64,000 nucleotides of DNA from an uncultured Flavobacteriales bacterium (GTDB lineage Bacteria; Bacteroidota; Bacteroidia; CAIKAF01), in contig CAILUT010000056.1 in NCBI GenBank assembly GCA_903837495.1, positions 1-64,000 of the forward strand, in the 5' to 3' direction. Every line of letters starts with the position of its first letter. Within the stretch, counting starts at the first letter, position 1. Shown piece by piece: positions 3,001 to 58,948 of this stretch. Both the position numbers and the translations under genes were made by a program. Below the pieces are notes generated by a model. The model had not been told where the DNA came from. It saw nothing but the letters and a program-made list of their open reading frames with translations, and did not search any database.

Positions 3001-5767
3001 TTCCGGACCTGGTGGTGCAGGTTTCCTAACCGATGGCCCACTAACTTCCGATAACCGTCCCATGTGCAACAAAGACGTGGCTCTGTCTTTCCTGAATGGG
3101 GGGCGCGGTGGAAAATTATTGTACTCTTGTGGAAATGCCCCAGCCAACTTGGTTCTTGGTGGATTTGGGGGTGGTTCTGCCTCCGGTTGGGGTGGTTCTG
3201 CCGGCGGCGGCGGATATTCCGGTGGAGGATCTGGGACAAATTCAACCGTCGGTTATGGCGGTGGCGGCGGCTCATATCTTGCCCCTGCAATTTTCGATGT
3301 GGCTACTTCAGACGGATTTTATGACAATCTTTCTCAACATAACAACGGCCCTATTGGAAACCTTGCTTCTGTAAATCAAGGTCAAGGCTATTTGATTGTC
3401 AATTACAGCATCCCTCAGCCCTCCGATACCAACGGGGTTTGGTCTGGTGTTACCATCACCGATACCCTACTTGGAACCTTTAACCCTCAATTGGGTGTAT
3501 TGGGCAACAACACCGTTGTTTACACTGTAAGCAATAACGGTTGCACCTTTACCGATTCCTTAATCATCAATGTGGTTCAAGGCCCAGATGCCTCCATTAC
3601 TACGGCTTCTACCCAATTGTGCGACTACGACAACAGCATCAGCCTTGCTGCGCTGAACAGCGGCGGCAACTGGACTGGCAATGGACTAAGCGTAGTTGGA
3701 AGTAACGTGAGCTTCGACCCAGGTTCGGTGAATGCCGGTACCTATCAAGCCTATCACAGCATTTTTGATGCCGCTACCGGTTGCTTAAGCACCGACAGCG
3801 TTCAAATCGTGGTGAATCCAACTCCCGATGCCTCGGTTGCGGCTCCCAACATCATTTGCTCGGCCGACGCTCCCTTTAATTTGGTTCCCGTAACCAATGG
3901 AGGTGTGTTCACCGGCGCTGGAGTAACCGATACGGTAACGGGGGTATTTACTCCCAATGCCAATTTGGTTGGAAACACCATGGTGTATTACAACGTTACC
4001 GCCAACGGCTGTGTAAACAACGACAGCACCCAATTGACGGTGTTTGTTTCGCCCAATGCGAACATCAACAACGCTCCTCAGCAGCTTTGCGCCAACGCAG
4101 GTTTGGTTCAACTAATCCCCGCTCAACAAGGCGGCTCTTGGTACGGCGGCGGTATGGCCAACCCAAACAGCGGAGTATTTGACCCTCAGTTGGCAGGCAC
4201 CGGAACCGCTCAGGTGGTGTACCTGATTTCCAATGCGAATTGCATCAACAGCGATACGGTGAACATTGTGGTGAATGCCTTGCCAACGGTAAGCGTTTCT
4301 CCCAACACCATTCAACAGGTTTGCGCCGGTTCTACCCTGCCCTTAACGGCTTCGGGCGCCAGCAGCTACCAGTGGTTGAACAACAGCAGCCCAATCAGCG
4401 GAGCCAACACGGCGACCTATGCGCCTTCAACCGCAGGTTCATACAGCGTTGTAGGTGTGGATGCCAACGGTTGCTCTTCAACTTCGTCTGGAGTTCAAGT
4501 AAACGTAGCTCCGAACCCTGTTGTTCTGCAAGTGAATGCCCCAACGGTATGTCAGGGCAACGCTACGGCCTTTACTCAAACCTCGGCCATTGGTCAGGGC
4601 GGCATTATTACCGGTTACAACTGGGATTATGGCGACGGCAATACCGGAACGGGCTTCGCGCCCAACCACGTGTATGCCGCAGCCGGCACGTACACCGCTC
4701 AATTGATTGTGGTTAGTGCTTCAGGTTGTACCGACACCTTAGCCCAATCGGTTACCGTGAACGCCAGCCCCGTACTTGACTCGGTTCTTGTTACCAACGC
4801 ATGTTTCCCCAACCCCACCAACTTCCAGGCTTTTGTGTCGGGTGTAAACGTGGGCAACTACCAGTGGAACTTCGGCAACAACGCCTCGGGTACCGGTTCT
4901 TTGGCCACCCATACCTATGCGGCTGCTGGTACCTATTACTATCAGTTGCTGGTGAATTCTGTGGAAGGTTGTACCACGGTGCAAAACGGAACGGTTCTGG
5001 TCGAAAACCAGCCTACGGCAAATTTCTTGCCTACCGATGGCTGTACCGATCAACCCCTTAGTCTGGTAAACACTTCAACGGGCAACATTACAGGTTGGGA
5101 TTGGAACTTTACCACAGGTACATCAAATACCCAGGTTCCAGCCTACACCTATACTCAAGCGGGAACGTATCCGGTGAGCTTGACAGTAACCACTCCTGGC
5201 GGTTGTACCGATACCCATACGGAATTGCTAACCATTCATCCTACGCCAAATGCTAGCTATTTGGCTACAAACCAAGGATTGAATTTGGTGCAGTTCTCGC
5301 CCGGAAACTTGCTGAATCCAGCCGGGTATTTGTGGACCTTTGGCGACGGAACTTCGAGCAACCTAAGCAGCCCCTTGAAGCAATATGCGATCTCAGGAAG
5401 CTATCAGGTTTGCTTAACCATCTCGGCCAACGGTTGCTCCAACACCAGCTGTCAGAACATCGAGGTGCGCGACATCACCTCTATCTCTGAGCAAAACGGT
5501 TCGGGTGTTGCTTTCAGCGCCTATCCAAACCCGGTAGTTGACGCCTTTAATGTAAGCATTCGACTGGATGCCGCCTCGAAGGTTGAGCTGAAGGTGTTTG
5601 ATTTGGCAGGCAAAGAGATTTCAACCGTTGATGCAGGCACCTTGGCCGCAGGTATGAATCAATTGTCATTGAGTGCCGACGCACTAGGCATGGCCGAGGG
5701 GGTTTATGTGTTAACCCTATATGTGGAAGGTCAGCCATTCAGTTTGCGTATGGTTCGCAACAAATAA
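2..5767 (+). CDS. Giant glycine-rich, Ig-like and PKD surface protein, T9SS cargo (5' end outside window)
   Basis: The frame is open from base 2 with no start codon or signal peptide in view, so the gene is cut by the window edge; about 1,920 residues remain. It begins inside a Gly-rich domain, then alternates Ig-like linkers (TCG...SGSTGWYHWF type) with Gly-rich domains starting near 420, 1410 and 2510. Each Gly-rich domain opens with an aromatic beta-strand (QTFNYTG...TWTVPAG) and continues with GGGGASDIRIGG and VVVAGGGGGAGG segments, the pattern of the Pfam ALK/LTK-like glycine-rich family (PF12810). After 3420 come further Ig-like repeats, four PKD-type units (WDYGDGNTG and relatives) and a type A T9SS sorting domain (AYPNPVVDAF...). 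Inference: a secreted, surface-anchored adhesin or matrix protein. It is a tandem paralogue of the next gene. The first in-frame ATG lies inside a domain, so it is not a real start. Confidence 0.9.
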   Translation, partial: GGAGGGGWFGGGGSSYGGGAGGSNYADPNLCTGIAHSRGTRQGHGIVTINYTSPFCTSTRVPVNLTVNPLSAPTANPISATCGSNITASASGSTGWYHWFAAPTGGSPLSTQSNYSMSFVTQTDTIYVEAVSDPNPSGTQTFNYTGSLQTWTVPAGVFSLAFDVRGAQGGTNTWNNGGKGGKVTGTLAVTPGQTLNIYVGQQPGSGGCCTNIWGPGGYNGGGQGHAWSGGDQARGGGGASDIRIGGTNLNNRVVVAGGGGGAGGQACNGNQDRGGDGGGSGNAQNGFYCGGNSTCYVGNGGTQSAGGQGAQCGPGQPGQAGVGGNAWGGCCGWTGGGGGGGWFGGGGAYYYGGGGGGSSYANPNSTSNVSHTQGDQNGNGQIVVSFVKSYCSSTRVPVAINVAPLAAPVTQGDSVTCGTPVTLTATSNSAVSWFDAPTGGNLIAIGPSISLPPILGSDTLFAGSQLTSNLSGTQTFNFTGAPQTYTVPANVTAITVDVQGAQGGGSLPSPGNNPGGLGGRVQTTLSVTPGEVLAVNVGGTTSTTGGGWNGGGNGTSNGAGGGGGSDIRSGGTGLASRIVTAGGGGGGGWNCGSGMNGGHGGGSGAAQDGFNCGSNSFGSCVVGGGASPTAGGAAPGCGCGTAGVSGVGGQGGTCGNSGGGGGGGQFGGGGGYYGGGGGGSSFASPTRSSSTTHTQGFRSGNGQIVVSYNVTLVCASPRVPAVIWLDSLPAPTASGDTAFCGSGSASLSVTGPNGNYSWYDNWGGNLVNIGQNWATPSLTQTINYHVNYKVNGCPSKFDTALVQVTPIPVALLSDPGIVCVGNGLVDLGFDPPLLSDSKTFSSCGYNGDFGPTQGAADSTYGPGFVSVQNGIQLWTVPYNGVYEFIAAGADGSHGGLNPSGFGGGGRGAIMQGKIQLTAGTVLKILVGQQGKHGTSAGGGGGGTFVATSNNTPLIVAGGGGSSRSGPNLNLSIMDAATAPCGKTGTGGAGGCAGNGAPFANSGPGGAGFLTDGPLTSDNRPMCNKDVALSFLNGGRGGKLLYSCGNAPANLVLGGFGGGSASGWGGSAGGGGYSGGGSGTNSTVGYGGGGGSYLAPAIFDVATSDGFYDNLSQHNNGPIGNLASVNQGQGYLIVNYSIPQPSDTNGVWSGVTITDTLLGTFNPQLGVLGNNTVVYTVSNNGCTFTDSLIINVVQGPDASITTASTQLCDYDNSISLAALNSGGNWTGNGLSVVGSNVSFDPGSVNAGTYQAYHSIFDAATGCLSTDSVQIVVNPTPDASVAAPNIICSADAPFNLVPVTNGGVFTGAGVTDTVTGVFTPNANLVGNTMVYYNVTANGCVNNDSTQLTVFVSPNANINNAPQQLCANAGLVQLIPAQQGGSWYGGGMANPNSGVFDPQLAGTGTAQVVYLISNANCINSDTVNIVVNALPTVSVSPNTIQQVCAGSTLPLTASGASSYQWLNNSSPISGANTATYAPSTAGSYSVVGVDANGCSSTSSGVQVNVAPNPVVLQVNAPTVCQGNATAFTQTSAIGQGGIITGYNWDYGDGNTGTGFAPNHVYAAAGTYTAQLIVVSASGCTDTLAQSVTVNASPVLDSVLVTNACFPNPTNFQAFVSGVNVGNYQWNFGNNASGTGSLATHTYAAAGTYYYQLLVNSVEGCTTVQNGTVLVENQPTANFLPTDGCTDQPLSLVNTSTGNITGWDWNFTTGTSNTQVPAYTYTQAGTYPVSLTVTTPGGCTDTHTELLTIHPTPNASYLATNQGLNLVQFSPGNLLNPAGYLWTFGDGTSSNLSSPLKQYAISGSYQVCLTISANGCSNTSCQNIEVRDITSISEQNGSGVAFSAYPNPVVDAFNVSIRLDAASKVELKVFDLAGKEISTVDAGTLAAGMNQLSLSADALGMAEGVYVLTLYVEGQPFSLRMVRNK
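1221..2410 (+). repeat. Long direct repeat, copy 1 (within first giant gene)
   Basis: This 1.19-kb block aligns with 8534-9723 at a constant offset of 7,313 bases at both ends. The Ig-like linker DNA is almost identical (about three differences over roughly 115 bases near 1281-1400), while the Gly-rich stretches differ mainly at synonymous sites. The pattern fits recent duplication or gene conversion. Confidence 0.85.
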
Positions 5768-5788
5768 TGGATTGTAGGTTTTGATTGA

Positions 5789-5822
5789 ACGGGAGGCGAG
5801 AAATTGCCTCCCGTTTTTTTTT
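5789..5822 (+). terminator. Rho-independent terminator of first giant gene
   Basis: A 9-bp stem (ACGGGAGGC with GCCTCCCGT), an 8-base loop and a run of nine T. It begins 22 bases after the stop codon. Confidence 0.9.
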
Positions 5823-6160
5823 GGGCTGTGTGGCCGTTTGTCTTGGTGAGAACCCATGGAATTCACGCAGAGACGCAGGGTTATGCGTTTTCAATCCCAA
5901 GGGCGGGGTTGTGGCCGGTTGGAATTCTCTTTTTTGAAAACAATCCGCAAACAGCAGAAATCCTTGCTCGGCCTTAGATTTGCTTCCTTACCCAACCCAG
6001 GGCACCTTTGGGTGTTGCTCAGGTGCATTTTAAAGGAATTGAAATCTATTTTTGCTCTTTTTTCAAAAAAAAGTACCTGAAAATCAAAGCACTAAAACAA
6101 TTTCATATAGAAATGAACATGGTGTTGTGAATATTCTATTTAATTTTTTTTAACTTAGCT
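5823..6160. other. Intergenic stretch between the giant genes, no gene seen
   Basis: A short open frame at 5856-6080 has no recognisable protein features. The stretch includes an ACGCAGAGACGCAG direct repeat near 5866, a motif type often seen scattered in Bacteroidota intergenic DNA, and becomes AT-rich toward the promoter of the next gene. Confidence 0.5.
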
Positions 6161-6170
6161 GTTCGTAAAC

Positions 6171-6178
6171 TATCTTTA
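6171..6178 (+). promoter_or_regulatory. Probable -7 box of second giant gene
   Basis: TATCTTTA matches the Bacteroidota TAnnTTTG -7 box at seven of eight positions and lies 38 bases before the ATG, in an AT-rich stretch. I see no clear -33 TTG at the usual distance. Confidence 0.5.
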
Positions 6179-6216
6179 ATCAATACCATAACAATTAACC
6201 CTAATCGTTAACAAAC

Positions 6217-9200
6217 ATGTCTATGAAGAAAGGAATTACTCTTCGACGTTGGTTCACGCATCTGTCGCTTTTTGCGGCCTTGATGGGTGCAACCATGGCC
6301 ATGGCTCAATGTCCGACTCCTTCGGCCTTGAGTTCAGCCGCGACCTGTGGTCAGGCGGCCACGCTTACAGCCTCTGGTTCCACCGGATTGTACCGATGGT
6401 ATAGCCAGCCCAGCGGCGGCTCTGTGCTTGGAACGGGCGGTTCGTACACCACTCCGGCCATGTACTTGCAAGGAACGTATTATGTTGAGGCTGTAAACAG
6501 CTACAACAACCCCAACTGCATTAGCCCTCGGGCCGCTTTGGTGGTTACGGTAAACCCCTTAGCAATGCCTAGCATTGTGGGCGATACTGTTACCTGCGGC
6601 GGCACGGCTACCTTATCGGCTTCCGGCTCTACCGGTTTGTACCGGTGGTATGCAGGCCCAACTGGCGGCGCGGTGTTGGCTACAGGAGCGAACTTTACGC
6701 CTCCTGGAACCCTGCAATCTACTACCTATTATGTAGAGGCAACCAACAACCTAAACCCCATTGCCACCGTTAACTTCAACTTCACCGGTGGACAGCAAAG
6801 TTGGACCGTTCCTGCGGGCGTCTTTTCTATTTTAGTGGACATGGAAGGTGCCGAAGGCAGCCGAACCACAAACTACGGCAACCGTGGCGGTTTTGGTGGT
6901 AAAGTAGTGGCCAATGTGGCTGTTACTCCTGGCCAAACCATCTTTGTGTTTGTAGGTGGATGGCCTGGCGACAACAACACCAATGGCGGTTACAACGGTG
7001 GTAATTATACCCAAGCATGTTGCGGTTACGCGTACGGCGGCGGTGGCGCCACCGATATTCGCATTGGCGGAACTGCTTACGGAAACCGCGTGTTGGTTGC
7101 CGGCGGCGGCGGCGGCGGCGGTTGGCAATGCGGAACCGATGGTTCGCGCGGCGGAAACGGCGGCGGTACTACCGGTGAAGACGGTTTTTATTGCAGCAGC
7201 ACAGGAAATACCAGCTACACCGGTCGCGGTGGCTCTCAAAACGCAGGTGGTGCTGCCGGCGGCAACTGGTGCTGCCCCAGTGCTGGAGCTTTGGGCGATG
7301 GAGGCTATGGTAGCTTCCGCGGTGGCGGTGGCGGTGGCGGCTACTACGGCGGCGGCGGCTCTAGCTACGGCGGCGGCGGCGGCGGTTCAAGCTTTGCCAA
7401 TGCCAACCTATGCTCCAACATTGCGCACACTCAAGGTACGCGCCAAGGACATGGCCAGGTAAGCTTTACCTACTCCTCTCCTTTCTGCGTTAGCTCGCGC
7501 GTTCCCGTTCCCTTAACGGTAACACCCTTGGCCACGCCAACAGCCAACCCCATTAGTGCTTCTTGCGGAAGCAACATTACCGCTTCTGCTTCGGGTTCTA
7601 CCGGTTGGTACCATTGGTTTGCTGCCCCTACTGGGGGTTCTCCTTTGTCAACCCAGTCCAACTACGCTATGTCGTTTGTAACTCAAACCGACACCCTTTG
7701 GGTTGAGGCGGTTTCTGACCCCAACCCATCAGGTACTCAAACTTTTAACTATACCGGTGGCCAACAAACTTGGACCGTTCCTGCGGGTGTTTTCTCTGTC
7801 TCCTTTGACGTGCGTGGCGCTCAAGGCGGAACAAACACTTGGAACGATGGCGGTAAAGGGGGCAAAGTAAGCGGCACCCTTGCCGTTACTCCAGGTCAAA
7901 CCCTGAATATTTATGTGGGCGGACAGCCCGGCAGCGGCGGTTGCTGCACCGGCATTTGGGGCCCAGGCGGCTGGAATGGCGGTGGCCAAGGTTACGCTTA
8001 TTATAGCGGCGACCAAGCCCGCGGCGGTGGCGGTGCATCCGACATACGCATTGGAGGTGTTACCCTGAACAACCGAGTTGTTGTTGCCGGCGGCGGCGGC
8101 GGTGCCGGTGGTCAATATTGCAACGGCAACCAAGATAAAGGTGGAGCCGGAGGTGGTTCTGGTGCTGCCGGAAATGGTTTGGTGTGCAATGGATACAACA
8201 GCTGTTACTGCGGTACAGGAGCCACTCAGGCGGCCGGTGGAAACAACGGTTGTGGCGGACAAACAGGCCAATTCGGCGTGGGCGGTAACGCTTGGGGCGG
8301 CTGCTGCGGATATCCCTCAGGCGGCGGCGGCGGCGGCTATTATGGTGGTGGCGGTGGCTACTACTATGGCGGCGGTGGCGGTGGTTCTAGCTATGTTAAC
8401 CCTAGCTTGACCAGCAACGTAACCCATACTCAAGGAGACCAAAACGGCAACGGACAAGTTGTTGTAAGTTTTGTAAAAACCTACTGCTCCAGCACCCGGA
8501 TTCCTCTACCCATCGCTGTAACTCCGTTGGTGGCTCCTGTTACCCAAGGCGACTCTGTAACCTGCGGAACTCCTGTTACTTTAACAGCAACCAGCAACAG
8601 CACGGTTTCTTGGTTCGATGCTCCTACCGGTGGCAACCTAATCGCCATTGGCCCCAGCATCTCTTTGCCCCCCATCTTAGGTTCTGATACCTTGTTTGCC
8701 GGTTCAGAATTGACCAGCAACCTAAGCGGAACACAAACTTTTAGCTTTACAGGAGCGGCCCAAACCTATACGATTCCTGCCAACGTAACCTCAATTACAG
8801 TAGATGTATTGGGAGCACAAGGCGGCGGCTCACTTCCTAACCCAGGCAGCAACCCCGGAGGTTTAGGCGGTCGGGTTCAAACAACCTTGAGCGTAACTCC
8901 TGGTGAGGTTCTTGCTGTGAACGTAGGTGGAACAACCGTCAGCAATACAGGCGGTTGGAACGGCGGCGGCAACGGCAGCTCAAACGGTGCCGGCGGCGGC
9001 GGCGGTTCTGATATCCGCAGCGGCGGTACAGGTTTGGCCAACCGCATTGTTACCGCCGGTGGCGGTGGCGGCGGCGGCTGGAACTGCGGTTCTGGTATGA
9101 ACGGCGGCCACGGCGGTGGCTCTGCCAATGCTCAAGATGGCTTTAACTGCGGCAGCAACAACTTTGGTAGTTGTGTAGTTGGTGGTGGCGCAACGCCCAC

Positions 9201-12200
9201 CGCCGGAGGTCAACAACCCGGTTGCGGCTGCGGAACAGCAGGTGTTTCTGGTGTGGGCGGACAAGGTGGAACTTGCGGCCAGTCTGGCGGCGGCGGCGGC
9301 GGCGGTCAGGTTGGCGGCGGCGGCGGTTACTACGGCGGCGGCGGCGGCGGTTCTAGCTTTGCTAGCCCAACCCGAGCTTCTTCAACCACCCACACCCAAG
9401 GATTCCGCTCCGGAAACGGTCAGATTGTGATTTCATACAACGTAACCCTCGTTTGCGCAAGCCCAAGGGTTCCTGCAGTTATTTGGTTGGATTCACTTCC
9501 AGCTCCTACTGCCAGCGGCGATACCACGTTCTGCGGAAGCGGTTCGGCTAGCCTTTCGGTTACCGGCCCCAACGGAAACTATTCTTGGTACGACAGCTGG
9601 GGTGGAAACTTGGTGAACATCGGTCAAAACTGGACCACTCCAACAAACACTCAAACCATCAACTACCACGTAAACTACAAGGTAAATGGTTGTCCTTCTA
9701 AATTCGATACCGCTCTGGTTACGGTTAACCGGATTCCTTTCGCCTATCTAACCGATCCCGGTGTTCTGTGCGCCGGAAATGGAAATGTGGATTTGGGTTT
9801 TGAACCTCCCTTGCTGCAAGGCAGTATGTCGTTCACCAACCTAGGTAAAACAGGAAATACAGGTCCAGACCAAGCAGCTGCCGATGCAGCCTACGGCCCA
9901 GGTATGGTTACGGTAAACAGCGGCGTACAGCGCTGGACCGTTCCTTACACCGGCGTTTATACCATTGAAGTGGCCGGCGCCAAAGGCGGTGGCAACCTGA
10001 ACAACGCAGGCGGAAAGGGGGCCCAAATGCAAGGCAACTTCCAGTTGACTGCGGGCACCCAACTTGATATCATTGTAGGTCAAATGGGCGTTGATGCCGG
10101 TGGCAATACTTGGCAAGGTGGCGGTGGCGGCGGCGGTTCCTTCGTATGGAACGCCAGCAACCTGAACCAGCCTTTGATCGTTGCCGGCGGCGGCGGCGGT
10201 GGTGGCAACAACCAATCCAACAACAAAAAAGATGCTTGGACCAACAACGACGGCCAAACCAATGGCGAAAACGCTCCCGGCGGTACAGGTGGTAGCGGCG
10301 GTGGCGTCGGCAACACCGGCAGCTGGGGCGGCGGCGGCGGCGGTTTCTTGACCGACGGTCTTTCTGATGGTTCTTTCGGTAAAGGCGGAAAAGCAGCCGT
10401 GAATGGAGGCAATGGTGGCCAATCCGGTGGTAACTCTAACAATTCCGGTGGTTTTGGTGGCGGTGGCTCTGACGGCTACGACGGCGGCGGCGGCGGTGGC
10501 GGCTACTCCGGTGGTCGCGGTGGCGGTTACTCCGGACATACCTTCCGCAATGGCGGTGGCGGCGGTTCTTTCAACCTCGGTACCAACCAAATCAACCAAG
10601 CTGCAGCCAACAACAACCATGGATTTGTAAACATCAACTATTTCATCTCCCAGCCTTCAGATACCGCTGGTGTATGGACTGGAACCATGGTTACCGATAC
10701 CATCAATGGTATTCTGGATCCTTTGTTGGGTCAAGTTGGTACCAACATGGTTTACTACACCGTTAACTTGAACGGTTGCGTACACTCTGATTCCTTGTCT
10801 ATCACTGTAGTTCAAGGTCCAGATGCCTCCATCACTACGGCTCCTACCCAATTGTGCGACTACGACAACAGCATCAGCCTTGCTGCGCTGAACAGCGGCG
10901 GCAACTGGACGGGCAGCGGACTAAGCGTAGTAGGAAACAACGTGAGCTTTGACCCAGGATCGGTAACTGCCGGTACCTATCAGGCTTATCACAGCATTTT
11001 TGATGCGGCTACCGGTTGCTTGAGCACCGACAGCGTTCAAATTGTGGTGAATCCTACTCCCAACGCGTCATTGGCTCTACCTTCAACGGTTTGTTCTGCC
11101 GATGCTCCGTTTAACTTGGTTCCCAGCACCCCCGGCGGTGTATTCACAGGAACCGGTGTAACCGATACCATCAACGGGGTGTTTACTCCTTCGTTGAATA
11201 CGGTTGGAACTCAAACCCTAACCTATCAGGTAACAGCCAACGGTTGTTTCAACACCGCGAACACCAATGTAACTGTGTTTGCTTCACCAAACCCAACCAT
11301 TTCAAATGCGCCTCTGCAATTGTGCGAAAATGCGTCCAACGTATTGCTGCAAGCTGCAACCGTAGGTGGCAACTGGTATGGCAGCGGAATGGCCAACAGC
11401 AACAGCGGTTTGTTTAACGTTCAATTGGCTGGAACAGGTTCTGCCCAGGTTATCTATGTGGTTTCCAACGCAAACTGTACCAACAGCGATACGGTAAACA
11501 TCGTGGTGAATCCTTTGCCTGTGGTGAACGTTAGTCCTAACACCATTCAACAGTTGTGTTCTGGTTCCAACATTCCCATGTCGGCCAACGGAGCCATCAG
11601 CTACCAATGGACCAACAACGGAAGCCCAATCAGCGGCGCCAACACCGCCAACTATACGGCCACAACTGCCGGTAGCTACAGCGTTATTGGTACCGATGGC
11701 AACGGTTGCGTAAGCACTACCGCTGCGGTTCAGGTGAACGTTCTGCCCAACCCAGTTATCTTCCAGGTCAACGCCTCTACCGTTTGCGAAGGCAATTCAA
11801 CGGTGTTTGGCCAAAACTCTGGCATTGGCCAAGGTGGGGTTATTACCAACTACAACTGGAACTTTGGCGACGGCAACAACGGCTCTGGTTTCTCAACCAA
11901 CCACGTATATGCTACGGCGGGTTCCTACACCGCTCAGTTGATTGTATCAACCCCCGAAGGCTGTACCGATACCTTGGCTCAAAGCGTAACCGTAAAAGCC
12001 AACCCATCGGTTGACTCAGTTATGGTGAGCGGAGCTTGTTTCCCAAGCCCTGCAAACTTCCAAGCTTTTGTGAGCGGAACCCCAATGGGTACCTACTCTT
12101 GGAACTTTGGCAACGGAATCAACGGTAACGGTGTAATTGCTCAGCACCAGTATTCTACCCCTGGGGTGAAATACTACACGCTGAACGCACTGGCCTTGAA

Positions 12201-12999
12201 CGGTTGTTCTACCACCTTCAATGGAACGGTTACTGTGGACGAAGTGCCAACTGCGGCTTTCCTAAGCCAACGCGGTTGCACCAACACGCCAATCAATGTA
12301 ACCGATGTGTCAACCGGCAACATTTCAAACTGGAGCTGGAACTACGGACAAGGAACAACCACCGGTCAAGCACCAAGCATCAGCTTTGCGACCGCAGGTA
12401 CCTATCCGATTAGCTTAACGGTTACTACGCCCGCCGGTTGCAGCAATACTACCACTCAAATGGTAACCATTGCTCCTTCTCCAAACGCCACATACAACTG
12501 GGCCAATCAAGGTTTGAACTTGATTCAGTTCGCTCCTCAAAACCCTGTAGTAGGTGCATCTTACTTGTGGAACTTAGGCGATGGCACCACCACTACGGTG
12601 TTGAGCCCCTTGCATCAGTACAACCTGCCTGGCAACTATCAGGTATGTTTGACCATGGATGTGGACGGTTGCAGCAGCACCGAGTGTCAGGTAATCGAGT
12701 CGCGCGACATCACTTCGTTCGAGGGCAATCAAGCCAACGAATTCGGATTGAGCGTGTACCCGAACCCATTCCAATCTCAGTTCTTTGTAGGCATGATGCT
12801 GAAAGAAGCGACCGAGGTTAAAGCTACCCTGCGCGACTTGACAGGCAAGCAGTTGGCGGCCTACACCTTTGGTGTGGTTCCTGCCGGCAGCCACAACCTG
12901 CCTGTTTCGACCGCAGCACTTCAGTTGTCAACCGGAGTGTATGTAGTGGAAATGAACCTGAACGGCGCGGTGTACTCTACCCGCATCATCAAGGAATAA
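6217..12999 (+). CDS. Giant glycine-rich, Ig-like and PKD surface protein, T9SS cargo
   Basis: A complete 2,260-residue secreted protein. Residues 1-30 form a signal peptide ending AMAMAQ; a second ATG two codons in is equally possible. Two Ig-like units (about 32-180) are followed by four glycine-rich domains at about 185-421, 505-753, 838-1073 and 1203-1478, separated by Ig-like linkers. Each Gly-rich domain has an aromatic opening strand (TWTVPAG), runs of 5-9 glycines, paired cysteines (GGCCG) and an AGGGGG segment. They resemble the ALK/LTK-like glycine-rich family, whose animal members form polyglycine II helices. Residues 1490-2170 hold more Ig-like repeats and four PKD-type units; the last 85 residues are a type A T9SS sorting domain (VYPNPFQSQF). 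The binding target is unknown. Inference: a surface adhesin or matrix component exported by the T9SS, for which porW, porQ and porG-like genes lie in this window. Confidence 0.92.
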   Translation: MSMKKGITLRRWFTHLSLFAALMGATMAMAQCPTPSALSSAATCGQAATLTASGSTGLYRWYSQPSGGSVLGTGGSYTTPAMYLQGTYYVEAVNSYNNPNCISPRAALVVTVNPLAMPSIVGDTVTCGGTATLSASGSTGLYRWYAGPTGGAVLATGANFTPPGTLQSTTYYVEATNNLNPIATVNFNFTGGQQSWTVPAGVFSILVDMEGAEGSRTTNYGNRGGFGGKVVANVAVTPGQTIFVFVGGWPGDNNTNGGYNGGNYTQACCGYAYGGGGATDIRIGGTAYGNRVLVAGGGGGGGWQCGTDGSRGGNGGGTTGEDGFYCSSTGNTSYTGRGGSQNAGGAAGGNWCCPSAGALGDGGYGSFRGGGGGGGYYGGGGSSYGGGGGGSSFANANLCSNIAHTQGTRQGHGQVSFTYSSPFCVSSRVPVPLTVTPLATPTANPISASCGSNITASASGSTGWYHWFAAPTGGSPLSTQSNYAMSFVTQTDTLWVEAVSDPNPSGTQTFNYTGGQQTWTVPAGVFSVSFDVRGAQGGTNTWNDGGKGGKVSGTLAVTPGQTLNIYVGGQPGSGGCCTGIWGPGGWNGGGQGYAYYSGDQARGGGGASDIRIGGVTLNNRVVVAGGGGGAGGQYCNGNQDKGGAGGGSGAAGNGLVCNGYNSCYCGTGATQAAGGNNGCGGQTGQFGVGGNAWGGCCGYPSGGGGGGYYGGGGGYYYGGGGGGSSYVNPSLTSNVTHTQGDQNGNGQVVVSFVKTYCSSTRIPLPIAVTPLVAPVTQGDSVTCGTPVTLTATSNSTVSWFDAPTGGNLIAIGPSISLPPILGSDTLFAGSELTSNLSGTQTFSFTGAAQTYTIPANVTSITVDVLGAQGGGSLPNPGSNPGGLGGRVQTTLSVTPGEVLAVNVGGTTVSNTGGWNGGGNGSSNGAGGGGGSDIRSGGTGLANRIVTAGGGGGGGWNCGSGMNGGHGGGSANAQDGFNCGSNNFGSCVVGGGATPTAGGQQPGCGCGTAGVSGVGGQGGTCGQSGGGGGGGQVGGGGGYYGGGGGGSSFASPTRASSTTHTQGFRSGNGQIVISYNVTLVCASPRVPAVIWLDSLPAPTASGDTTFCGSGSASLSVTGPNGNYSWYDSWGGNLVNIGQNWTTPTNTQTINYHVNYKVNGCPSKFDTALVTVNRIPFAYLTDPGVLCAGNGNVDLGFEPPLLQGSMSFTNLGKTGNTGPDQAAADAAYGPGMVTVNSGVQRWTVPYTGVYTIEVAGAKGGGNLNNAGGKGAQMQGNFQLTAGTQLDIIVGQMGVDAGGNTWQGGGGGGGSFVWNASNLNQPLIVAGGGGGGGNNQSNNKKDAWTNNDGQTNGENAPGGTGGSGGGVGNTGSWGGGGGGFLTDGLSDGSFGKGGKAAVNGGNGGQSGGNSNNSGGFGGGGSDGYDGGGGGGGYSGGRGGGYSGHTFRNGGGGGSFNLGTNQINQAAANNNHGFVNINYFISQPSDTAGVWTGTMVTDTINGILDPLLGQVGTNMVYYTVNLNGCVHSDSLSITVVQGPDASITTAPTQLCDYDNSISLAALNSGGNWTGSGLSVVGNNVSFDPGSVTAGTYQAYHSIFDAATGCLSTDSVQIVVNPTPNASLALPSTVCSADAPFNLVPSTPGGVFTGTGVTDTINGVFTPSLNTVGTQTLTYQVTANGCFNTANTNVTVFASPNPTISNAPLQLCENASNVLLQAATVGGNWYGSGMANSNSGLFNVQLAGTGSAQVIYVVSNANCTNSDTVNIVVNPLPVVNVSPNTIQQLCSGSNIPMSANGAISYQWTNNGSPISGANTANYTATTAGSYSVIGTDGNGCVSTTAAVQVNVLPNPVIFQVNASTVCEGNSTVFGQNSGIGQGGVITNYNWNFGDGNNGSGFSTNHVYATAGSYTAQLIVSTPEGCTDTLAQSVTVKANPSVDSVMVSGACFPSPANFQAFVSGTPMGTYSWNFGNGINGNGVIAQHQYSTPGVKYYTLNALALNGCSTTFNGTVTVDEVPTAAFLSQRGCTNTPINVTDVSTGNISNWSWNYGQGTTTGQAPSISFATAGTYPISLTVTTPAGCSNTTTQMVTIAPSPNATYNWANQGLNLIQFAPQNPVVGASYLWNLGDGTTTTVLSPLHQYNLPGNYQVCLTMDVDGCSSTECQVIESRDITSFEGNQANEFGLSVYPNPFQSQFFVGMMLKEATEVKATLRDLTGKQLAAYTFGVVPAGSHNLPVSTAALQLSTGVYVVEMNLNGAVYSTRIIKE
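8534..9723 (+). repeat. Long direct repeat, copy 2 (within second giant gene)
   Basis: Partner of 1221-2410. A further shared block continues around 10816-11060, matching 3581-3820 at an offset of 7,235 bases; the different offset reflects indels in the less conserved fourth Gly-rich domain. Confidence 0.85.
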
Positions 13000-13056: not shown

Positions 13057-13059
13057 GTG

Positions 13060-13198
13060 GCGGCCGCGGGCTTTCACCGGTAGTCCGCGGTGCTTGCCCA
13101 AGGGCCCAGCGGGCTTGCGGGGGCTCCTAAAGTCGCCTCCGCGCCACGCGGGCCCTAGGGCAAGCCCCCTTTGGGCTACCCGGTTCAATCCCTGCCGC
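13060..13198 (-). repeat. 140-nt structured element, copy A1
   Basis: One of six related elements. Read on the minus strand: outer stem GCGGC-A-GGG with CCC-GCG-GCCGC, flanking boxes ATTGAACC and GGTGAAAG, variable arms (CTTGCCCTAGGGCCCGC with GCCCGCTGGGCCCTTGGGCAAG), and the central motif GGAGGCGACTTTAGGAGCC at 13140-13122. It forms an inverted pair with copy A2. Function unknown; see findings. Confidence 0.85.
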
Positions 13199-13252
13199 GG
13201 GCCGCTCGGGGCCTTGCTGTTGTAATAAAACTATTTTTAGCTGTGAGGCGCT

Positions 13253-13392
13253 GCGCCAGGGATTGCAGCGGCAGGCGGCGAAGCCGGCAAAACAAGCAGC
13301 AGGCCGCCGGGGCGGGCGACCTTGTGGAGCCACGCCGCGGCCCTGCTGCTTTTTGCCGGCGAGCCAACTACAGCGGAAAGCCCGTTTGGCGC
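13253..13392 (+). repeat. 140-nt structured element, copy A2
   Basis: Outer stem GCGCC-A-GGG with CCC-GTTT-GGCGC, variable arms GCCGGCAAAACAAGCAGCAG and CTGCTGCTTTTTGCCGGC, and central motif GGGCGACCTTGTGGAGCC at 13314-13331. It is followed by CCCC and an A-tract. Together with A1 it fills the convergent gap between the giant gene and the atpZ/porW cluster. Confidence 0.85.
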
Positions 13393-13407
13393 CCCCCAAA
13401 AAAACCG

Positions 13408-19734: not shown

Positions 19735-19800
19735 AAATGGAAAGTGATTTTCTGGGCTAGGGCCCTATGTTCTTCATTCACCCATTTTTAGTTTTTGATC

Positions 19801-22017
19801 ATGAAAACATTTCCTTTCCTTTTGCGCTTGGGCCTATTGTTTATGTCCACCTCAGCGGCTCATGCCCAAAATTTTCAAGGCAGCGTCCGCGATTCTTTAG
19901 ACCGCCCTTTGCCCTCGGCCCGGGTTGTTTGGCTGCTGAGCCAAGGCGGAATTGGCGGTGGACATTACACCGATAGCTTAGGGCGCTTTTCCTTTGCACT
20001 CAAAAGCCAGCCTGAATCGGTTCGAGCCATTGTATCGGCACCGAATTATTTCGCCGACACCGTTTTGCTGCAGTCGGGCATTCCCTATCCGGTTCGCTTG
20101 CAAGCCATAACCTTGAATGCCTATGAATTGGTGGTGGAGTCGTTTTCTACCTCTTTATATACGGCCAAACCCCAGTTTATTGAAAACATTGGTTCCAGGG
20201 AATTGCGCCGGGCCGCCTGCTGCAATTTATCGGAATCGTTCGAAACCAACGCCACGGTTGACGTAGGCTATACGGATGCGGTTACCGGAGCCAAAACCAT
20301 TCAATTGCTGGGGCTTGATGGGCGCTACGTTTCCATTACTTCTGAACAAATGCCTTCGATCCGGGGCCTTGCCTCGGCCTATGGCATTGGTTACATTCCC
20401 GGCCCATGGATGGAATCCATTCAAATTTCAAAGGGCTCGGGTTCTGCCGCCAACGGCTTTGAATCGATGGCCGGGCAAATCAATGTGGAGCTAAAAAAGC
20501 CTGAAACCGCCGATCGGTTTTACCTGAATGCTTTTTTGAATCACTTAGGTCGGTTCGAAATGACCTTGCAGCATGCCGAACGCCTGAACCCACGCTGGTC
20601 GGTGCTTACCTTAGCTCACGGCGAATATTTTGAAACCATCACCGACCGCAACGCCGATGGATTTTTGGACATTCCTTTTAAGAAATCGGTAAGCGGTATG
20701 CACCGCTGGAAATTCCAAGGCAAGCGCATGGAAGCCCAATTTGGGGCAAAAGTATTGGCCGAAGACCGAAAAGGAGGGACCCTTTCCGCCTTTCAAAAAC
20801 CCTCTTTAGGGCCTATATTTCTGGCTGCCGCTTCAACCTTGCGGGCCGAGGCATTTGGGAAAACCGGTTTTTTCTTTGCCGGCAAGCCTTACCAATCCTT
20901 GGGCCTGATGTTCTCGGGTACTTTTCATGACCAGCGCGGGCCCATTGCAGGCCGAAATTACCTGGGCCAAGAATACACCGGATATTTCAATTTGGTTTTT
21001 CAGTCGCGGATTCGCAACGACAACCACAGCTTCAAAACCGGAGCCTCGATGTTGTACGACCAAGTAGAAGAGGGTCTTGACACTCAGGTTTTTGCCCGCA
21101 CCGAAGCCGTACCTGGCGTTTTTCTGGAATACACCTGGAAACCCCTGAGTTCTCTTCAGCTGGTAACCGGCGGCCGCCTTGATGCGCACAACTTGTTTGG
21201 CTTGATTCCCCAGCCGCGCTTTCATTTGCGCTGGGAACCCCAATGCGGCTATATTTTTCGGCTCAGTGGCAGCCGCGGATTTCGCAGCCCCAATCCCTTT
21301 GCCGACCGCATGGGAATGCTGATGACCGGCCGCGAAATAACGGTAGATATTCCAGAATGGAAGCCCGAATTGACGTGGACCTATGGGGGCGGATTTCAGT
21401 GGGTGCGCACCTTGTTTGGCCGCGATGCCCAGGTTACCCTCGATTTCTTTGAAACCCGGTTTGAGCGGCAGTTTGTTGCCGACCGCGAACAGAGCGGGCA
21501 GCTGCGCATGTATTATGTGGAGGGCAGTGGATTTTCGCGGGTGGCGCAGGCCAACGTTTCGTTTTTTCCTTTAGAGCGCTTTGAGCTTCGGTTGGGTTGG
21601 AAATGGCAAGACGTGCAGGCCGAGTTTCAGGGGCAGCTGCAGGCCATGCCTCTAATGCCAATGCACCGCGGCGTTTTTACCGCCGGCTACAACTGGAAAA
21701 AGGCAGGGTTTACGGTTGATGCCACGGTGCAACTCATGGGCCCAGGTCGATATCCGGTGGTTATTGATCCGGGATTGTTGGAAAATCGGCCCCTCGAAAC
21801 ACCTTGGTTTGGCATTGTTCTGCTGCAAATGACCAAGAGCATTGGTCCGGTTGAGTTGTATGCCGGGGTTGAAAATTTGTTGGATTACCGGCAAGAGAAT
21901 CCGCTGGTGGATGCCGGCAATCCGAACGGAGGCAATTTTGACGCTTCGCTGGTGTTCGCGCCCATTTTTGGCCGAACCTTTTATGCAGGGGTGCATTGGA
22001 GTCCTTTTAAAAAGTAG
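19801..22017 (+). CDS. TonB-dependent outer-membrane receptor, probably metal-related
   Basis: 738 residues from the ATG at 19801. Signal peptide (STSAAHAQ) at about 1-22; carboxypeptidase-D-like regulatory domain (FQGSVRDSLDRPLPSARVVW) at about 23-100; plug domain at about 105-230 with ELRRAACCNLSESFE, LLGLDGRYV and SMAGQINVELK; then a 22-strand type barrel to the end (PIFGRTFYAGVHW). The CC in the plug, just before NLSESF, occurs in receptors linked to HYC_CC_PP proteins and heavy metals. Role: energised uptake across the outer membrane by TonB-ExbBD, encoded elsewhere. Substrate, perhaps copper or a copper chelate, is inferred only from the upstream gene. Confidence 0.87.
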   Translation: MKTFPFLLRLGLLFMSTSAAHAQNFQGSVRDSLDRPLPSARVVWLLSQGGIGGGHYTDSLGRFSFALKSQPESVRAIVSAPNYFADTVLLQSGIPYPVRLQAITLNAYELVVESFSTSLYTAKPQFIENIGSRELRRAACCNLSESFETNATVDVGYTDAVTGAKTIQLLGLDGRYVSITSEQMPSIRGLASAYGIGYIPGPWMESIQISKGSGSAANGFESMAGQINVELKKPETADRFYLNAFLNHLGRFEMTLQHAERLNPRWSVLTLAHGEYFETITDRNADGFLDIPFKKSVSGMHRWKFQGKRMEAQFGAKVLAEDRKGGTLSAFQKPSLGPIFLAAASTLRAEAFGKTGFFFAGKPYQSLGLMFSGTFHDQRGPIAGRNYLGQEYTGYFNLVFQSRIRNDNHSFKTGASMLYDQVEEGLDTQVFARTEAVPGVFLEYTWKPLSSLQLVTGGRLDAHNLFGLIPQPRFHLRWEPQCGYIFRLSGSRGFRSPNPFADRMGMLMTGREITVDIPEWKPELTWTYGGGFQWVRTLFGRDAQVTLDFFETRFERQFVADREQSGQLRMYYVEGSGFSRVAQANVSFFPLERFELRLGWKWQDVQAEFQGQLQAMPLMPMHRGVFTAGYNWKKAGFTVDATVQLMGPGRYPVVIDPGLLENRPLETPWFGIVLLQMTKSIGPVELYAGVENLLDYRQENPLVDAGNPNGGNFDASLVFAPIFGRTFYAGVHWSPFKK

Positions 22018-22041
22018 GATTTTGGTTTTTTGGCGGCAGTT

Positions 22042-22520
22042 CGATGGGGCTGCGGCTTATCGATGGTGTATTGCGCCTTGATGGGGTTGCGGCCTATTGT
22101 TGATGTATTGCGCATCGATAGGGTTGCGGCCAATTGTTGGTGTATTGCGCCTCGATAGGGTTGCGGCCAATTGTTGGTGAATTACGCCCGTCGATAGCCT
22201 CGATAGGGCTGCACCCTATCGCTGACGTATTGCGCCCCTTCAGGGCTGGTCTTTCGCTAACGTATTACGCCCGTCGATAGGGCTGCGGCCTATTGTTGAT
22301 GTATTACGCCCCTTCAGGGCTGGTCTTTCGCTGACGTATTGCGCCCGTCGATAGGGTTGCGGCCTATTGTTGATGTATTACGCCCGTCGATAGCCTCGAT
22401 AGGGCTGCACCCTATCGCTGACGTATTACGCCCCTTCAGGGCTGGTCTTTCGCTGACGTATTACGCCCGTCGATAGGGTTGCGGTCTATTGTTGATGTAT
22501 TGCGCCCCTTCAGGGCTGGT
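22042..22520. repeat. Tandem array of about 12 short hairpin units
   Basis: About twelve units, each ending in a variant of GTATTRCGCC (R = A/G), spaced roughly 36-45 bases. Three kinds alternate: CGATAGGGYTGCGGCCTATTG, CGATAGGGCTGCACCCTATCG (a perfect 8-bp stem) and CCCCTTCAGGGCTGG. The array fills the convergent gap between the TonB receptor and dps. There are no unique spacers, so it is not CRISPR. Confidence 0.85.
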
Positions 22521-23558: not shown

Positions 23559-23700
23559 GCGGGCGGGATTGAAGCAAGTGGCCCGCAAGGGTGTCGGGCC
23601 ACGGCCCCGCGAGGGGCGGAGGCGACTTTAGGAGCCACCGCAACCCCGCTGGGGCCGAGGCCTGCACCCGCGGACCACTGCTGAAAGCCCGATTTCCCGC
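23559..23700 (+). repeat. 140-nt structured element, copy B
   Basis: Outer stem GCGGG-C-GGG with CCC-GATTT-CCCGC; inner continuation AGC-A-AGTGG with CCACT-GCT; G/C-rich variable arms ending GCCACGGCCCC / GGGGCCGAGGC; central motif GGAGGCGACTTTAGGAGCC at 23618-23636. An outer TTTTTTGGGGG / CCCCCCAAATAAAA inverted repeat flanks it. It ends 72 bases before the next gene and upstream of that gene's -7 box. Confidence 0.87.
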
Positions 23701-23758
23701 CCCCCAAATAAAATCCCAAATTTGGCCTATGTGCATTTCAAATTCAGTGGGATTTATG

Positions 23759-30870: not shown

Positions 30871-31031
30871 GCGGGTGTAGGCGGCTTTTAATCCGAGAAA
30901 TTCGAGGGCAACCAAGGCTTGGAAACACCATCAAAAAGGCTGTTTGCTTGCATTTTTAGGTGGTTTCGGGCTTTCCGCTCCTGTCCGTGCTGCGGAAACG
31001 CTGGGGCAGTGGGTGCACAATCAACCGTCCT

Positions 31032-31470
31032 TAAAACCGGGTTGAACCTAGAAGGTGCGAGATAGTGCGTCTCTAGGTTAAGGCCTCGGCCCCACACCAT
31101 CAATCCGCTTCAAAACTGGGTTGAATTTAGAATGTGCAAGATAGTGCGTCTCTAGGTTAAGGCCTCGGCCCCACACCATCAATCCGCTTCAAAACTGGGT
31201 TGAATTTAGGATGTGCAAGATAGTGCGTCTTTGCGTTAAGGCCTCTTCAAAACCGGGTCGAGCCTAGAAGGTGCAAAATAGTGCGTCTCTAGGTTAAGGC
31301 CTCGGGCCACCACCATCAATCCGCTTCAAAACTGGGTTGAACCTAGGAGCCGCAAAAGAGAGCGTCTCTAGGTTAAGGCCTCGGGCCCACACCATCAATC
31401 CGCTTCAAAACTGGGTTGAACCTAGGAGCCTCAAAAGAGAGCGTCTTTGCGTAAACGCCGCACACCAACT
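31032..31470. repeat. 79-bp tandem repeat array with RNA-like hairpin
   Basis: Units begin at 31032, 31111, 31190, 31248, 31327 and 31406: period 79, except one unit of 58 that lost 21 bases. Each holds AAAACYGGGTTGAAYYTAG, a GTGCGTCT core and a CTAGGTTAAGGCCTC segment. AACCTAGA pairs with TCTAGGTT; in units 2 and 3 the left arm is AATTTAGA, which still pairs through G.U. The array fills most of the convergent gap after the aminopeptidase. Bases 30871-31031 hold nothing recognisable. Confidence 0.88.
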
Positions 31471-31506
31471 TCAAATCCCAAAAGACAAAGGGCCTTGAGG
31501 TTTGTG

Positions 31507-31995
31507 CTATTTATTGTTGAAATCCCGCTGATCGATGCGCCGCTGTTCTTGTGCATGGATGAGTTCGCGCAGGGGCGATAAGCCCGACTTACCCCATCCG
31601 TTCACCCAACCCACCATGGTATCGGCCCCCAACCGCTCGCATTGAACTACAAATAAAATAGTGTCTTGGTTTGGATGCCTGTCCCAAAAAACCATCAGCG
31701 GCATTCTTAAGGGCAGGGCAGATTGGGGGGTTCCTTTTGGGGGGCTAAAGGAGAAAATCGCCCCGTTTTTTTGCACATCGTTTTTGCTGGCCACTTTGCC
31801 GGCAAAGGGTTTTGTTTTCATGACCTGTGAGTATGGGGTAGGGGGCAAAGGGCGGGGTCTGTTTTTTGCCTGGGGAATGCTGTCCAATGTGCTTGGATCT
31901 AGGGTTTCGGTTTCGGGGTTGTTGGCCGCAGTCTTTTCCCCGCAGGCCAACATCAAAGAGCAAAGAGCCACAAAGGCATACACGTGTATTTTCAT
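31507..31995 (-). CDS. Putative lipoprotein of unknown function
   Basis: 162 residues. The leader ends LMLAC (Cys18), followed by a Pro/Thr-rich linker (about 20-60) and a small domain with two Trp-containing strands (MVFWDRHP, MVGWVNGWGKSG). It starts 11 bases after the rnr stop and is probably the last gene of a pdhB-rnr-lipoprotein operon. I recognise no family. Its 3' end faces the 79-bp repeat array. Confidence 0.75.
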   Translation of the reverse strand: MKIHVYAFVALCSLMLACGEKTAANNPETETLDPSTLDSIPQAKNRPRPLPPTPYSQVMKTKPFAGKVASKNDVQKNGAIFSFSPPKGTPQSALPLRMPLMVFWDRHPNQDTILFVVQCERLGADTMVGWVNGWGKSGLSPLRELIHAQEQRRIDQRDFNNK

Positions 31996-43741: not shown

Positions 43742-43880
43742 GCGCCCCCGATTGAACCGGCAGGCGGCGCCGGGGAACCGGCATCGGCAAGCCGGCGAGG
43801 AGGCGACTTTAGGAGCCACCGCAGCCGGGATTGCCGACCGGTTGCCCAAGCCGACTACAGGTGAAAGCGGGATTAGGCGC
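43742..43880 (+). repeat. 140-nt structured element, copy C
   Basis: Best-conserved copy. Outer stem GCGCC-CCCG with CGGG-ATTA-GGCGC; boxes ATTGAACC and GGTGAAAG; variable arms GGGGAACCGGCATCGGCAAG / GCCGACCGGTTGCCC; core GGAGGCGACTTTAGGAGCC at 43799-43817. It is followed by CCCC and an A-tract and ends 63 bases before the purB start on the same strand. Confidence 0.88.
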
Positions 43881-43943
43881 CCCCTTAAAAAAATCCCACG
43901 ACCCAGAAATTTCCTTCGTAACTTCGTGCCTTAGATTGTGTTT

Positions 43944-45302: not shown

Positions 45303-45343
45303 AAACGCAGCGTTTTTTAAAGGCTTTGGGTTGAAAAATTGGG

Positions 45344-45481
45344 GCGCCTTTTCCCGCTTTCACCTGTAGTGAACGGCGGCCCAACCTGCAAACAGGGCCT
45401 TGCGGTGGCTCCCAAGGTCGCCTCCTAAGGCGCTGTTTGCTGGGTTGGGCCGCCGTTCACTGCCGGTTCAATCGGGGGCGC
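45344..45481 (-). repeat. 140-nt structured element, copy D
   Basis: Read on the minus strand: outer stem GCGCC-CCCG with CGGG-AAAA-GGCGC, ATTGAACC and GGTGAAAG boxes, and the longest arms of the family, about 27 bp, nearly perfect (GTGAACGGCGGCCCAACC with GGTTGGGCCGCCGTTCAC). The core GGAGGCGACCTTGGGAGCC is at 45425-45407. It sits between the purB and mdh 3' ends. Confidence 0.88.
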
Positions 45482-58808: not shown

Positions 58809-58948
58809 GCGGCCCGGATGGAGCCGGCACCGCGGGCGGCCCTTGGGCCGCAGTGCGGAGCAGGGTGGGGGCGACCAGGGGGAGCCACCACACGGCCCGC
58901 ACTGCCCCAAGGGCCAACCAAGGTACAGGCGACAGCCGGAATAGCCGC
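58809..58948 (+). repeat. 140-nt structured element, copy E (divergent)
   Basis: Most diverged in sequence, but the same structure. Outer stem GCGGC-CCGG with CCGG-AATA-GCCGC; internal loop ATGGA / GACAG where the family has ATTGA / GAAAG, a compensated U-A to G-C change; next GCC / GGC instead of ACC / GGT. Arms GGCCCTTGGGCCGCAGTGCG and CGCACTGCCCCAAGGGCC. Core GGGGGCGACCAGGGGGAGCC at 58867-58886. Confidence 0.8.

Follow-up and report, generated by a model that had tools for sequence, protein, structure and literature searches.

Positions 45344-45481 of the window, i.e., the whole stretch of 64 kb analyzed here, form a single long hairpin (DNA fold z = -8.0, equaled by none of 200 shuffled sequences) and are the exact limits of its basal helix. 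This hairpin, copy D, belongs to a family of ~140-bp intergenic hairpins present in about 200 copies per genome. In these elements the pairing and the length of the arms are conserved, the arm sequence is free, the loops are constant and one of the two strands matters. The elements are probably long-armed relatives of Flavo-1 (RF01705), carrying purine-rich loops in their boxes and apex and linked by an arm helix selected for pairing and length, its sequence being free; recognition by a protein would be a further step.

Architecture and functional strand of the hairpins

The window carries six copies, A to F (Table 1). Copies A and D lie on the plus strand and B, C, E, and F on the minus strand, the Flavo-1 strand being the opposite one in each case. 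In copy D, the two boxes pair with each other, leaving an A.G and tandem GA mismatches. Its apex, GGC-TC-CCAAGG-TC-GCC when read on the plus strand, places a tandem GA beneath a small loop on the Flavo-1 strand. Canonical Flavo-1 boxes are found in copy B (GGATTGCAGCGGCAG ... ACTACAGCGGAAAGCCC), and the boxes of copy E carry compensatory changes (TG/CA and GCC/GGC) with the same mismatches as the other copies.

Table 1. Coordinates of copy D, of its parts, and of the other copies in the window.
Feature	Position	Flavo-1 strand	Evidence
Copy D, whole element	45342..45481	minus	R1 match 67 bits, E 3e-11, on plus; hairpin z -8
D, basal helix, one side, GCGCC (partner GGCGC 45477-45481)	45344..45348		sequence, fold
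D, unpaired TTTT bulge, one side only (Flavo-1 strand AAAA)	45349..45352		sequence, fold
D, box CCCGCTTTCACC (Flavo-1 strand GGTGAAAGCGGG)	45353..45364		conserved at orthologous loci
D, variable arm, first side, 42 nt	45365..45406		sequence, orthologues
D, apex GGCTCCCAAGGTCGCC (Flavo-1 strand GGC-GA-CCTTGG-GA-GCC)	45407..45422		195 genome-wide pattern matches
D, variable arm, second side, 42 nt	45423..45464		sequence, orthologues
D, box GGTTCAATCGGG (Flavo-1 strand CCCGATTGAACC)	45465..45476		sequence, orthologues, alignment
D, basal helix, other side, GGCGC	45477..45481		sequence, fold
Copy A	13058..13198	minus	R1 149.7 bits
Copy B, inverted beside A	13253..13394	plus	R1 49.8 bits
Copy F	23559..23701	plus	R1 133.4 bits
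Copy C	43742..43882	plus	R1 64.5 bits
Copy E	58809..58948	plus	sequence, fold

Genome-wide, the apex pattern gave 195 matches in the genome of the window, against 0-1 for a reversed-pattern control, and 166-212 in three congeners (G002, G003, and G005); the same search of viral contigs gave none. The elements have a GC content of about 70%. Some occur as inverted pairs about 50 bp apart, as illustrated by A/B in the window and by two further loci (L082 and L202). Contig ends repeatedly fall within elements (C13, C16, C17, C22, C24, and C25 of G000; C10 and C26 of G003), as expected for strong DNA hairpins, which suggests that the hairpins interrupt sequencing or assembly. At one locus (L006, G000_049), the start of a gene is duplicated to the right of the element, and a second, partial element end comes after it.

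Mismatch types provide independent evidence that the selected fold is that of the minus strand of D. On the Flavo-1 strand (minus in D), every fixed mismatch of the boxes and apex is purine-purine, in the order A.G, UU/AA, tandem GA at the foot, with a tandem GA at the tip. The plus strand, which would carry pyrimidine mismatches, was rejected as the functional strand of D. Counting isolated sites only, separately from fixed mismatch sites and alignment slips, new mismatches between orthologues read on the Flavo-1 strand comprise 6 G.U and no A.C, and 21 purine-purine against 5 pyrimidine-pyrimidine; within copies, outside the recurrent mismatch sites, there are 15 G.U and 3 A.C. G.A is commoner than G.U among the new mismatches, both counts being small. 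The share of G.U among the predicted pairs of this strand is 2.4%, against 12% in shuffled sequences, the sole comparator. Such a low share would be unusual for RNA.

Pairing, length, and drift of the arms

According to the original prediction, each copy carries arms of 20-30 bp (about 27 in D) that differ between copies and pair within each copy. The length has to be revised: it is nearly constant, the left arm measuring 45-47 nt and the right arm 45-48 nt in almost all of 185 copies (mostly 46-47 per side), with 42 nt in D. The pairing within copies is confirmed. Indeed, the arms of the same copy form on average 36.8 Watson-Crick pairs in these 185 copies, against 30.1 when arms are swapped between copies and 27.9 when they are shuffled. 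Among 34 non-redundant copies of equal length, 89% of 1258 cells (37 column pairs) are Watson-Crick, and 223 cells are double-changed, where shuffling gives 60 on average and 82 at most. Sliding the partner by 1-2 positions lowers the Watson-Crick share of these copies to 30-35%. In a near-gapless alignment of 28 copies over 143 columns, double changes that keep the pair occur at 24 of the 40 predicted pairs. Interruptions recur at left index 8, 15, 18, and 24, so the architecture exceeds a plain helix.

The supposed lack of arm similarity between copies stands only in part. Most arms do differ, 53 of 92 copies of this genome being singletons at an identity of at least 85%, but random pairs of copies are about 61% identical once aligned, against 46% after shuffling, and 31 of the 92 fall into two families. 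With about a third of the copies in two families, some arm similarity is due to descent.

Orthologous copies, assigned via their flanking sequence, allowed the evolution of the arms to be followed. An element is present at almost every orthologous intergenic site in the related genomes; one clean presence/absence site was found, with no visible target duplication at the empty site. The same arms are kept at these loci with slow drift, and arms diverge further than boxes: identity between orthologues is 91-100% for boxes and apex and as low as 57% for arms. This is illustrated by the D locus, where most of the arm is common to G000 and G005, the outer arm is largely rewritten and mostly still pairing in G002 and G003, and the boxes are constant across the four genomes except for one base. 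In the closest species pair (G002-G003, flanks 88-99% identical), 354 of 358 pairs are unchanged, 4 carry a single change and none a double change. Between G000 and G005 (flanks about 83%), 606 pairs are unchanged, 72 carry single changes, 31 double changes that keep the pair and 12 that break it. Comparisons at ~77% flank identity give in sum 105 doubles kept and 29 broken, in counts that share lineages and are non-independent.

Since single changes come first and doubles accumulate later with divergence, the arms change by stepwise compensatory drift and not by concerted copying. The covariation and these stepwise changes support the earlier proposal that the helix is kept by selection regardless of its sequence. 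Its companion, an active diversification of one arm copied to the other side, is not supported, given the absence of double changes in the closest pair. The slow ordinary drift that had been named as evidence against the proposal is indeed observed at orthologous sites, and tells against diversification only. Hence, many mutually unlike arms in one genome need not imply active diversification.

Relation to Flavo-1 and to other repeats

Flavo-1 is a candidate structured RNA of Bacteroidetes classed as not cis-regulatory (Weinberg et al., 2010, PMC2864571, Table 1); it has been listed since 2010 with no function assigned. In the F. psychrophilum transcriptome, Flavo-1 shows no preference between sense and antisense orientation to transcripts, many of its loci fall outside transcribed regions, and no functional clue emerged (PMC9723704). 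RF01705 matches were found in 27 of 198 genomes of the phylum, several with at least 22, and in none of the control genomes; G036 has 34 copies, G024 27, and G012 14.

The window elements resemble Flavo-1 in their foot boxes (GATTG..AGCGG / AGCGGAAAGC, canonical in B; GATTGAACC / GGTGAAAG, covarying in C and D), in the order of the A.G, UU/AA, and GA loops, in the 3' bulge, the A-run and the variable hairpin, and in their dispersal as many copies per genome in Bacteroidia. In other high-copy genomes, Flavo-1 likewise shows a variable hairpin between constant ends, and in several of these genomes it has a 3' A-run and a 3' bulge like the elements here. Further palindromic repeats, e.g., GGCTTCGACAGGCTCAGCCTGACAG, sit at the tip of the Flavo-1 hairpin in other genera (L242, L244, L247, L262, L269, L272, and L275), as though small repeats had nested in the loop.

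A covariance model built from copies of the genus retrieved full-length homologues in two congeners (G001 and G004) and in other families (G055, G127, and G123), as well as short homologues in G131, G190, and G217. Three of the homologues it found (L198, L196, and L193) match RF01705 with 32.6, 31.6, and 31.2 bits (E 0.002-0.005), the alignment being full-length, on the expected strand and correctly placed. In the genome of the window, three copies (L084, L080, and L033) align to RF01705 model positions 1-76 on the predicted strand with 24-26 bits, and copy B scores 17.4 bits over 13235-13391 on the same strand as its Flavo-1 strand; short elements of this genome match too (e.g., L235). Scores range from 17.4 to 29.3 bits in this genome and from 17 to 26 for copies of the window genus. 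The Rfam gathering score of RF01705, 42 bits, is thus reached neither by these copies nor by the linked homologues (31-33 bits). The Rfam search of the window at the gathering threshold returned no match, and copies C and D had no RF01705 match even in E-value mode; miRNA-type hairpin matches for C and D in that mode were regarded as chance. Elsewhere, a sub-threshold match to Acido-Lenti-1 (RF01687, 31.7 of 37 bits, E 0.0004) lies at 141-185 of locus L062, near or overlapping its element.

The window elements differ from Flavo-1, whose Rfam model is 76 nt, by arms of 46-47 nt per side, a conserved GA apex, GC richness and about 200 copies. Because they score below the cut-off, they are best described from their sequence as a putative lineage-specific, long-armed, high-copy Flavo-1-like variant, the closest known kind, and not as a formal member of RF01705.

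The likeness to integron attC sites put forward in the original prediction survives as an analogy, in the conserved foot, the variable palindromic middle and the strand-specific fold with unpaired features; Flavo-1, a known family with conserved foot boxes and a variable hairpin, agrees in boxes, bulge and strand. Unlike attC, the elements have a conserved apex, a fixed arm length and apparently unrelated boxes, and they occur at orthologous sites singly or in pairs, flanked by ordinary chromosomal genes, with no cassette arrays seen. Correia/NEMIS/ERIC-type repeats are likewise intergenic hairpins of 100-160 bp in 100 or more copies. Copies of those repeats share arm sequence, whereas here pairing is conserved instead.

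Genomic context and alternative explanations

Among 120 elements placed in stretches of G000, G002, G003, and G005, only 8 have their center within a large ORF. Between called ORFs, gaps of at least 180 bp hold 41 elements per 57 convergent, 44 per 97 tandem and 13 per 40 divergent gaps; these counts are of elements, a few gaps holding two, and the length cut favors element-bearing gaps. In tandem gaps, the Flavo-1 strand is antisense in 29 cases and sense in 15, an odd excess for a cis-acting RNA. The Bacteroidetes -7 promoter motif is not enriched beside the elements. In 68 of 122 copies, the Flavo-1 strand is bordered just beyond its 3' end by a T-run of at least 5 (plus-strand reading). 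The idea that this run ends a terminator lying upstream was rejected, a strong upstream hairpin being found in only 12 of 99. In 77 of 122 copies of the four genomes, orientation is opposite to the sign of the local GC skew (p 0.005).

In the best reading of these data, the hairpin would present GA motifs to a protein, a partner we purely infer. On the Flavo-1 strand, the conserved boxes and apex form internal loops rich in purines (A.G, UU/AA, and tandem GA), and the arms form a helix linking foot to tip, which might serve as a spacer. In this reading, arm sequence is free, pairing and length are selected, and each of the roughly 200 intergenic sites, most of them fixed, drifts on its own as ordinary point mutations arise in the arms and are later compensated. 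Each copy has its own arm sequence because base pairing, and not sequence, is preserved during this slow drift. The GA platforms at its foot and tip might serve a host protein as recognition sites once the strand, RNA or single-stranded DNA, has folded; the element may act locally, mostly in regions adjoining gene ends.

In the main rival, the element would function at the DNA level without transcription, either in single-stranded form or as an extruded cruciform, and might be a nucleoid, replication or recombination site. It accounts for the scarcity of G.U, the predominance of G.A among new single-step mismatches, the missing promoter enrichment, the mixed orientation to genes, the indifference of F. 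psychrophilum Flavo-1 to transcripts (PMC9723704) and the contig ends within elements. Yet the G.U and G.A counts are small, and strand-specific purine mismatches mean that the fold of one strand matters, a feature that a symmetric cruciform does not need; we hold this rival to be possible and no better than tentative. A version covering Flavo-1 and its long-armed relatives together, as DNA-level sites and not classical RNAs, whose single-stranded fold with GA platforms would be read by a conserved host protein, the arm sequence being free, appears rather doubtful, even though a low G.U share and mixed orientation would follow from it.

A REP-like or MITE-like mobile repeat, its arms maintained through the transposition mechanism, is unlikely, and its present-day activity is largely refuted. 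Like REP/BIME elements with RAYT, the hairpins are dispersed between genes with some inverted pairs, and the T-run at one border, the two families with similar arms at different loci and the single presence/absence site would fit. However, they are much longer, their arms differ, their sites are stable across species, and orthologues show compensatory drift; the Y1 (RAYT) transposase PF01797 gave no match in G000 and G005, both rich in copies, and no target duplication is visible at the one empty site. Templated correction within the hairpin (quasi-palindrome repair by template switching), as the copying idea of the original prediction suggests, could maintain complementarity without selection, in line with the high complementarity, the rarity of persisting one-sided changes and the many double changes that are transversions. 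It is very improbable given that doubles lag behind singles with divergence, being absent from the closest species pair, that fixed mismatches stay uncorrected and that mismatch types are strand-asymmetric. Finally, chance or compositional palindromes, for which the high GC content might speak, are refuted by the reversed-pattern control, the shuffles and the orthology.

About 200 orthologous and independently drifting copies per genome amount to thousands of natural double mutants, which define which strand is functional, which loops are required and which mismatches are tolerated. Counting G.U, A.C, and G.A in them makes the choice between RNA and DNA testable.

Other repeats were observed in the window. 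A tandem array with a unit of ~37 bp (GATAGGG.TGCGGCC...TATTRCGC) and a second, interleaved unit occupies 22041-22520, after the ORF at 19795-22017, and tandem-like repeats with a 79-bp spacing lie between ORFs at 30949-31538. At 326-12999, glycine-rich repeated segments are encoded by two ORFs of very large size, 1813 and 2260 aa, and long stretches of them are 74-90% alike.
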